From positions 2,418,001 through 2,482,000 of the forward strand of contig NZ_CP011454.1 of NCBI RefSeq assembly GCF_000695095.2: a stretch of DNA of 64,000 nucleotides, given 5' to 3'. A model generated the notes under the pieces. That model worked only from the letters and a program-made list of their open reading frames with translations. It was not told the DNA's origin and did no database searches. Each line of letters begins with the position of its first letter. Position 1 is the first letter of the stretch. Source of the stretch: Gemmatimonas phototrophica (GTDB lineage: Bacteria; Gemmatimonadota; Gemmatimonadetes; Gemmatimonadales; Gemmatimonadaceae). This document shows, in pieces, positions 36,599 to 40,010 of this stretch. A program made the position numbers and the translations under genes.

Positions 36599-37618
36599 TC
36601 AGTCCTGCGCCGTGGCAATGGAGCTTTCACCCGTTTCGAGTACGGGGGCCTCGCCGATGCCGTGATGCGCCAGCCAACGCTCCGCTTCCAGCGCCGCCAT
36701 GCAGCCGGTGCCCGCCGAGGTGATCGCCTGCCGATAATAGTCATCGATGACGTCGCCTGCGGCAAAGACGCCATCCACGTTCGTGGAGGTCCGCCATGGC
36801 GCCACTTTGATGTACCCGAACTCCGACGTGTCCAACTGCCCGCCGAGGAACTTGGTGTTTGGCGTGTGCCCAATGGCCACAAAGAGCCCACCAACTTCCA
36901 GCTGACTGACGGCCCCGGTCACGGTGTCTGCGAGGGAGAGGCCGGTGATGAAATCATCACCCAGCACCTCGGTCACCTGCGAGTTCCAAATCACCCGGAC
37001 CTTGGGATGCTGGAGTACCCGGTTGGCCATGACTTTTGACGCGCGGAAACTGTCGCGGCGATGAATGATGACCACTTCGCTGGCAAACTTGGTGAGATAC
37101 ATCGCTTCTTCCATTGCAGTATCGCCACCGCCCACCACTGCGAGACGCTTGTTACGGAAGAAGGGCATGGCCCCATCACAGACCGCACACGCCGACACGC
37201 CGCCGCCCTGCTGCGCCATGCGAATCTCACTCTCGAGACCGATCCACTTGGCCGCCGCTCCCGTCGCTACGATGATCGTGTGTGCGGTGACGGCAGGCGA
37301 GTAGTTGGGTGTGATGGTGAACGGGCGTTGCGACAGGTCCACCTGCTTGACGAGTTCGGACACCACCCGCGTTCCGTGATGCACCGCCTGCGCCTTCATC
37401 CGTTCCATGAGGTCGGGGCCACTGATGGCCTCGGGGAACCCCGGAAAGTTCTCGATGTCCGTCGTGAGCATGAGCTGGCCACCAGGGAGCTCAGTGCCGA
37501 CCGGCTCACCCTCGAATACCAGCGGGGAGAGATTGGCACGAGCCGCATAGATGGCCGCCGTCCAGGCCGCCGGGCCGGATCCGATGATGACGACGTTTTC
37601 GGAAGTCGAATCAGACAT
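36599..37618 (-). CDS. trxB: Thioredoxin reductase
   Basis: 339 residues from ATG 37618. Reduces thioredoxin with NADPH through FAD. FAD-binding [18 protein letters not shown], the redox CAVCDG motif, NADPH-binding [15 protein letters not shown], and the C-terminal FAD motif [15 protein letters not shown] are all intact. Length fits. It ends 2 bases before the MBL-fold gene. A longer reading of 58 residues exists upstream but has no family sequence. Confidence 0.96.
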
Positions 37619-37679: not shown

Positions 37680-38420
37680 TTATGAAAGTTCGAGGACCCC
37701 AAGCGCACCATGGCAGTGCGAGACCGTACCAACCAGCACGCGACTCGGTCCGTCACTGCCCCACTGTGCCAACTGCTCATCTGCCCGGGCAATGGCGGCA
37801 GCGTCGATCATCCCCACGCCGTAGGTGCGGTGGGTACAATGAAAAATAGCCGTTCCGTGCAGCGTTGGTTCGCGATCCGCCATGCGCCCGATGGCGACCG
37901 GCATGCTCCAGTCGCGGGGGCCACGGGTAGCCGGGCACTTGGCGGGCTCGATACAGTTTACCGGACAGGTCCACGTGGCAAAGCTGACGTAGTGCCGGTT
38001 GTCCGGTGCCGCACGTTCCCAAGGCGTGGGCGGTACGGATGGGAGGGGCACCACCTCCATGCCACGCCCAGGCCACCGAAGACGCGCACGGGCTATCAAC
38101 CAATCGAGGCAGAGGTGCGGCATCAGCGGTGACGGTACCATCGCATCGGCCGCAAGTGCCGGTGCCCCTTCAGCGAGCCAGATGGCGAGATACTCGTCCC
38201 AGGTGGAGACTACCACCCGGACCGGGGCGCCCGTGTAGTGCTGCTGGTCGAGCTGGGTGGCCACTCGACAGTGCGGATCCCGATCGACCACGACGATGTC
38301 CTGGACGGACAACGCCCCACGTTGGGCCGCACGCGTGAGCTGTTGGGTATACCAGCTTCCGTAACAACCTCCGCCAATCACGACGATGCGCCGGAAGGCA
38401 AGCGGTAACGCGGTGCCCAC
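37680..38420 (-). CDS. Unrecognised protein with Rossmann motif and cysteine cluster
   Basis: 246 residues from a GTG directly after the SDR stop codon; an ATG at 38447 overlapping the SDR is an alternative. The N-terminus has a dinucleotide-binding motif [18 protein letters not shown] and DIVVVDRDP, a beta-alpha-beta fold. Near residue 165 lies [12 protein letters not shown] (C-x3-C-x5-C) followed by [10 protein letters not shown]. The C-terminal part has [18 protein letters not shown] and [10 protein letters not shown]. The cysteines and histidines suggest a metal or iron-sulphur site beside a nucleotide site. I do not recognise the family. It lies between an SDR and trxB, which points to redox chemistry. 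Confidence 0.6.
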
Positions 38421-38421
38421 G

Positions 38422-39150
38422 TTAGCGACGGAGATGACGTCCACCATCGACCCGGAGCAAGGTGCCTGTGATGTACGGTGCGTCAACGAGATAGTGCACC
38501 GCACCGACCACATCGAGGGGGGTCCCCGTGCGAGCCAATGGCACGTCGCGCAAGAACTTCTCCCGCGCCGCCTCGGTCATGTCTTCGGGGGCGAGCACGA
38601 GTCCCGGCGCGATGGCATTGACGCGAATGCGCGGTGCAAGATGTTCGGCCACCGTCCGCACCAACTGATGCACCGCCGCTTTGGTGACCTGATGCGGGAT
38701 GAGTTGCGGGAACCCGGTTTCATCGGCCAGGTGGTCGGCCATCTGGATGATGCAGCCGCCGTCGTTCAGCGCACGCGCTGCTGCCTGCATCAGAAAGAAC
38801 GGAGCGCGGAGATTGATGGCTTCGGTGCGAGCCCACTCATCGGGCGTAACAGACTCGAAGTCCCGGAACTCCATGACGGACGCGGAACTGACCACCACAT
38901 CAAGGGCATCAAAGGCCGCGACGGCCGCTTGCACGATTCGCGCGGGCGCGGAGGAATCCTGCAAGTCTTCCTGCACGACCAGCACCCGCACGCCATGCGC
39001 CTGCTCCAGCTCTCTTGCCAGTGTCGCCGCGTCATCGGGCGAGTTTCCGTGATGCAGCACGAGGTGATAGCCGCGTTCCGCAAAACTGCGCGCAATCGCG
39101 GCACCGACCCGCCGCGCACTGCCCGTGACGAGTGCCACCCGTCGCAGCAT
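38422..39150 (-). CDS. Short-chain dehydrogenase, pteridine-reductase-like
   Basis: 242 residues. The NADP motif GSARRVGAAIA, with Ser-Ala-Arg-Arg, is typical of pteridine reductases (PTR1/FolM). The segment IIQMADHLAD keeps the Asp found in PTR1 at the usual Ser position. The catalytic YxxxK motif is altered: HQVTK has His where Tyr is expected. C-terminal TGTLLRVDGGRHL is normal. Either the enzyme uses His as acid or it is no longer a reductase. Tightly packed between the PHP gene and the Rossmann/cysteine protein. Confidence 0.8.
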   Translation of the reverse strand: MLRRVALVTGSARRVGAAIARSFAERGYHLVLHHGNSPDDAATLARELEQAHGVRVLVVQEDLQDSSAPARIVQAAVAAFDALDVVVSSASVMEFRDFESVTPDEWARTEAINLRAPFFLMQAAARALNDGGCIIQMADHLADETGFPQLIPHQVTKAAVHQLVRTVAEHLAPRIRVNAIAPGLVLAPEDMTEAAREKFLRDVPLARTGTPLDVVGAVHYLVDAPYITGTLLRVDGGRHLRR

Positions 39151-39153
39151 GGG

Positions 39154-40010
39154 CTACACCACCGCGTCGCGAGCGGCGACTTTTGCATCCTGCCAATCGA
39201 GCCAGACCTTGGGCACCAGCTGCCCACCGAGCTTCCGGGGTCCCTCCTGGGTGCCATGCCAGTCCGATCCTCCACTGGGCAGCAACCCGGCTTTCTCCGT
39301 GTGCTCCACCAGCCGTTGGACCAGATAGGGCGGATGACTGGGATGCAGCACCTCCACCGCATCCATCCCCATATCGGCGAGGCGGGCAATGCGGGTCGGC
39401 GTGGCCGAGTCGCCGGGGTGCGCCCAGACGGCCAGACCGCCAGCCTTATGGACCAGGGCAATCGCATCAGCAACGTCGAACTTGTCCTTGGCCATATAGG
39501 CCGGACGCCCCAGCCGATCCACTTGTCAAACGCTTCGCGAAACTCGCGCACCCATCCGCCCGCCAGCATGGCACGTGCGATGTGCGGACGGCCAACCGCG
39601 CCGTCGCCCGCTTCCTGCATCACCGCCTGCATGGTGATGGGAATGCTATGGGCATTGAGCGTGGCCACAATGCGCTCGGCGCGCGCGACCCGTTGCAGTC
39701 GAAGGTCGGCCAGCGCGTCCCGCATGGCCTCGCGATTGCTGAGATGCAAGCCAAGCAGGTGCAGCTCATCGTCGTCGAAATGCGTACTGAGCTCGACGCC
39801 GGGAACGATGCGCACGCCAAGGCGCTGACCCGCCTCGGCGGCTTCATCGAGTCCGTCCACGGTATCGTGATCGGTGATGGCGATGGCAAACAGTTGTGCA
39901 TCGGCCGCGGCTTGCACCACGGCGGCCGGTGCGAGCGCTCCATCAGAAGCCGTGGAATGCACCTGCAAATCCACGAACGCCGGCGCCGGCGCCGTGGTCT
40001 CTTCGATCAC
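39154..40010 (-). pseudogene. PHP-domain phosphoesterase with a one-base frameshift
   Basis: The start is GTG at 40010, overlapping the 88-residue gene upstream. The N-terminal part reads normally with PHP metal motifs (VDLQVHSTASDG, AIAITDHDTVDG) to FDKWIG near 39513. It then continues in another frame with LGRPAYMAKDKFDVADAI, VWAHPG and GGSDWHG, to a stop at 39154. Adding one base near 39514 restores a 285-residue protein of normal length. The family (YciV/RNase AM) hydrolyses 3',5'-nucleoside bisphosphates or trims 5' ends of RNA. This is either a real inactivating deletion or a sequencing error in a C/G-rich stretch. Confidence 0.85.

Follow-up and report, generated by a model that had tools for sequence, protein, structure and literature searches.

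Gene X and its genomic context

The genome of Gemmatimonas phototrophica encodes, between a short-chain dehydrogenase (SDR) and a thioredoxin reductase (TrxR), a protein in which a dinucleotide-binding loop is combined with a cysteine cluster. To which family this protein, referred to here as X, belongs and which reaction it may catalyse are the questions raised by this locus. The gene was analysed within a window of 64,000 nucleotides, that is, the whole stretch of DNA presented above, and its features are listed in Table 1.

Table 1. Coordinates of gene X, its conserved motifs and domains, and the flanking genes in the window
Feature	Coordinates	Strand	Evidence
X (protein X, 255 aa)	37680..38447	-	ORF; conserved in relatives
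Rossmann dinucleotide-binding half, residues 16-133	38049..38402	-	AlphaFold2 model; VIA-align to Rossmann proteins over residues 7-113
C-terminal half, residues 134-255	37683..38048	-	modelled alone: pLDDT 90
GGGCYG loop, residues 25-30, invariant C28	38358..38375	-	alignments (107 + 20)
CPxxCxEPxxCP ([12 protein letters not shown]), residues 161-172; invariant C161, C165, C171, E167	37932..37967	-	alignments
C204-T-H206; H206 invariant	37830..37838	-	alignments
C245-H246, both invariant (SxCHGA)	37710..37715	-	alignments
SDR (short-chain dehydrogenase, pteridine-reductase-like), upstream of X, same operon	38422..39150	-	
Thioredoxin reductase (TrxR), downstream of X	36599..37618	-	TIGR01292 above cut-off, CAVC active site

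X is a genuine gene: the dN/dS values of about 0.07-0.17 between close relatives are evidence of strong purifying selection and, together with the conservation of the protein, rule out a chance or spurious ORF. The SDR gene overlaps X by up to 26 nt, depending on whether X starts from the ATG at 38447 or from an alternative GTG at 38420, immediately beside the stop codon of SDR; the interval 37680-38420 considered in an earlier note on this DNA corresponds to X with the GTG start as its end. That note correctly placed TrxR beside X, but described the SDR gene as divergent, while all three genes are located on the same strand, with SDR upstream and TrxR downstream of X. A frameshift near 39500 interrupts the PHP-domain gene adjacent to SDR (39154-40010, minus strand), which reflects either a sequencing error or a recent pseudogene; in a close relative (L029) the gene is intact and encodes a protein of 286 aa.

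The gene order around X is conserved as PHP-SDR-X-TrxR-MBL, with an AhpC/TSA gene between PHP and SDR and a DUF309 gene between X and TrxR present in some genomes only. The fuller order in Gemmatimonadales comprises the genes for 2-oxoacid dehydrogenase E1-E2 (named from sequence rather than from a profile scan), a small protein and the PHP-domain protein, followed by SDR-X-TrxR, a metallo-beta-lactamase-fold protein and an aspartase-like gene. In another genome of the set an Rrf2-family regulator (PF02082; L143:10825-11277), possibly conserved, is encoded a few genes downstream of X, past the aspartase-like gene. Several genomes that lack X carry the same run of genes, with X absent between SDR and TrxR, and X is therefore an accessory, removable member of the operon. 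For the same reason, namely that the whole order is conserved also in genomes without X, the adjacency of X and TrxR in Gemmatimonadales is weak evidence of a functional link.

The TrxR genes found beside X belong to two lineages which are about 38% (36-42%) identical to each other, one present mostly in the genus of the window and the other in most of the remaining genomes. The occurrence of the window TrxR at the position occupied by the second lineage in most other Gemmatimonadales suggests a replacement in place. The thioredoxin reductase gene of G. phototrophica is reported to be constitutively transcribed (PMC11406998).

A different genomic context was found in two genomes of the sister order, L139 and L140, where X is located outside the Gemmatimonadales operon, directly after a gene encoding a TrxR-fold protein and about 25 nt apart from it. 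This neighbour contains no CxxC motif and scores far below the TrxR cut-off. Among its best relatives in the PDB, most carry the name ferredoxin-NADP reductase (FNR), although the single best one, 2zbw, is an entry named thioredoxin reductase. A separate TrxR-like gene is present elsewhere in the same genomes. Since L139 and L140 are related, the pairing of X with an FNR-like protein probably represents one evolutionary event. Two facts, the association of X with two dissimilar TrxR lineages and its FNR-like neighbour in the sister order, strengthen the case for a redox link.

Conserved residues and predicted structure

Conservation was analysed in an alignment of 107 relatives of X, part of which had been gathered via motif filters; 20 further relatives, found by profile only with no motif filter, were therefore checked as well. 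Among the 107 sequences, counting at each position those with a residue there, the following were conserved without exception: G25, G27, C28, G30, D55, H111, W159, C161, P162, C165, E167, P168, C171, P172, R178, W180, H206, S243, C245 and H246. This set includes five cysteines (C28, C161, C165, C171 and C245), three histidines (H111, H206 and H246) and the acidic residue D55. The positions inspected in the 20 profile-only relatives, including these five cysteines, the three histidines and D55, were invariant too. Less strict conservation was observed for C60, present in 105 of the 107 sequences and replaced by proline in both sequences from the sister order, and for C204 (about 90% of sequences). 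The combination of motifs claimed in the earlier note is present in full, as GGGCYG (25-30), C-x3-C-x5-C (161-172), C204-x-H206 and C245-H246, and is conserved far beyond chance.

The AlphaFold2 model of X, built from 58 sequences, has a mean pLDDT of 91 and a pTM of 0.87; apart from the N-terminal tail, confidence is lowest in the cysteine cluster (residues 161-180). Strands and helices alternate in the N-terminal half as in a Rossmann domain, with the GxGxxG motif at the turn between strand 1 and helix 1 and the acidic D55 ending strand 2. The C-terminal half, which carries the cysteine cluster, folds separately in the prediction. A Foldseek search of the PDB and viral libraries with the full-length model revealed nothing at E<=0.001, and the C-terminal half searched against the PDB likewise gave nothing at this threshold (best E 0.49). 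In VIA-align comparisons the N-terminal half matched many generic Rossmann proteins with Z of 5-7, while for the C-terminal half the best row was FabH (Z 4.1, rmsd 4.4 over 95 residues), a level of similarity that common arrangements also reach.

Family status and distribution

Searches of Pfam, NCBIfam, PHROGs, PADLOC and PDB sequences with the window protein gave no match; no curated cut-off of the first four databases was reached, and a 58-row profile of X revealed nothing significant among PDB sequences. Some relatives of X have marginal matches to generic Rossmann families. The earlier suggestion that X belongs to no recognised family therefore holds for these five collections; none of them yielded a characterised family whose profile would account for both the dinucleotide-binding motif and the cysteine cluster. 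A literature search found no description of the family. A defence role was considered and dropped, as PADLOC gave no match.

Relatives of X were identified in 29 of 41 close genomes and in 109 of 298 genomes sampled across Gemmatimonadota, nearly all from the order of the window; in the sister order (that of genome G166) a convincing match was found in only 2 of 154 genomes. The distribution beyond this phylum was assessed by one contig scan with two motif patterns, in which the best 80 of 92 X-like loci were all Gemmatimonadota-like. One locus (L039) comes from a record titled Candidatus Kuenenia stuttgartiensis, which is apparently a genome of the genus Gemmatimonas, since its contig number is that of genome G010 and its position is nearly the same. 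Viral contigs, phage records and plasmids contained no relatives, which argues against a phage or plasmid origin of X. Taken by sequence, X appears to represent a hitherto unnamed family, found in this analysis only in Gemmatimonadota. The family is small and conserved, and some close relatives lack X but keep the remaining genes of the operon, so that its function is easily testable.

Proposed function

Because the enzymes adjoining X feed electrons to other proteins, X is itself likely to be a redox enzyme of a new kind, dependent on a metal or on thiols. Our best explanation, offered tentatively, is that X is a cytosolic two-domain oxidoreductase that binds NAD(H) or FAD and contains a cysteine-ligated metal centre, perhaps an iron-sulfur cluster, electronically coupled to flavoproteins of the TrxR/FNR type. 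The Rossmann half and the separately folding C-terminal half, together with the Cys/His/Asp set invariant in both groups of sequences, are consistent with this proposal. The N-terminal half would bind the dinucleotide, with NAD(H) or FAD favoured over NADP by the position of D55. The metal centre would be located in the C-terminal half, with C161, C165, C171 and probably C245 as ligands, and H206 and H246 might serve as metal ligands or in acid-base catalysis. Electrons would move between this centre and a TrxR-fold flavoprotein, TrxR in Gemmatimonadales and ferredoxin-NADP reductase in the sister order. In this scheme we infer all of the metal, the cofactor, the direction of electron flow and the contact with the partner. 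The idea, raised in the earlier note, of a redox-sensing or metal-dependent nucleotide-binding enzyme agrees with the invariant cysteines, the modelled Rossmann half and the two types of flavoprotein reductase neighbours, and may be retained as a candidate activity.

FNR contains no dithiol and cannot itself reduce disulfides; a partner directly reduced by it would thus need to be an acceptor of one electron or of hydride. Because a partner common to TrxR and FNR would have to accept single electrons or hydride, an iron-sulfur cluster is preferred over zinc as the most likely centre of X. Proline residues beside cysteines are common in iron-sulfur motifs, and proline adjoins both C161 and C171. 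Zinc is equally compatible with the putative ligands.

It is possible, if somewhat doubtful, that X is a zinc-site Rossmann enzyme or regulator, in which the cysteines hold a structural Zn2+, NAD(H) is sensed or used, and the proximity to TrxR is incidental. The Cys3-Cys/His arrangement is typical of zinc sites too, and the preservation of the SDR-TrxR order in genomes lacking X indicates that the operon does not need it; however, structural zinc leaves unexplained the invariant C28 in the dinucleotide loop, and the pairing with FNR at a different locus also speaks against this reading.

Rather unlikely is the role of a thiol-disulfide substrate or relay of TrxR, whose putative redox-active disulfides (e.g. 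C28-C60), reduced by TrxR or thioredoxin, would control dinucleotide binding. The invariance of C28, the near-invariance of C60, the TrxR neighbour and an AhpC/TSA-like gene just upstream in some genomes agree with such a relay, but in both genomes with an FNR neighbour C60 is replaced by proline, and FNR itself is unable to reduce disulfides.

An E1/ThiF-like adenylating enzyme with a zinc motif is very improbable. In VIA-align, chains of UBA5, SAE and Uba4 rank among the highest-scoring rows (Z 6.6-6.8), level with unrelated Rossmann proteins. Compared by hhalign with ThiF proteins from the same phylum, however, X can be aligned over just 25 columns, those around GxGxxG (probability 4.5%), and its alignment lacks both the NLxRQ motif and the paired CxxC motifs that 11 ThiF proteins from related genomes contain, so that sequence contradicts this membership.

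A bolder version of the oxidoreductase proposal, which we regard as unlikely in its entirety, is that X represents an undescribed class of iron-sulfur, NAD(H)/FAD-dependent oxidoreductases, with a cluster-domain fold so far absent from the PDB, and constitutes a branch of the TrxR/FNR electron-delivery network in Gemmatimonadota. The redox biology of this phylum is little studied, and a metal- or iron-sulfur-dependent partner of TrxR and FNR would add a new acceptor to an electron-delivery system that is among the most fundamental in the cell. If X is a structural zinc protein, it would be simply another uncharacterised Rossmann family.

Comparison with known systems

With the TrkA_N (PF02254), NAD_binding_8 (PF13450) and DAO (PF01266) families X shares the GxGxxG loop and the acidic residue after strand 2. 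Some members of the X family have weak matches to these families, but the window protein has none, no member matches convincingly over its full length, and the cysteine-rich C-terminal half is absent from all three. The thioredoxin reductase/FNR flavoproteins contain two Rossmann domains in about 310-340 aa and are described by TIGR01292-type profiles; X, with its 255 aa and no NCBIfam match, is not a member of this group. The ThiF/E1 superfamily has the Rossmann half in common with X, and some C-terminal strands could also be aligned by VIA-align. When solved folds of the thiolase/FabH-like kind are considered for the C-terminal half, the best VIA-align row is the FabH match given above. Uncharacterised TrkA_N-like Rossmann proteins with CPxxCPEP and a C-terminal CxCHG motif occur in deltaproteobacteria of the Desulfovibrio/Geobacter type. 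An approximate query for these proteins, not taken from an actual record, gave no match in plasmids and viral contigs. Their motif order is like that of X, and such proteins would represent a wider family to which X belongs, rather than an explanation of it.
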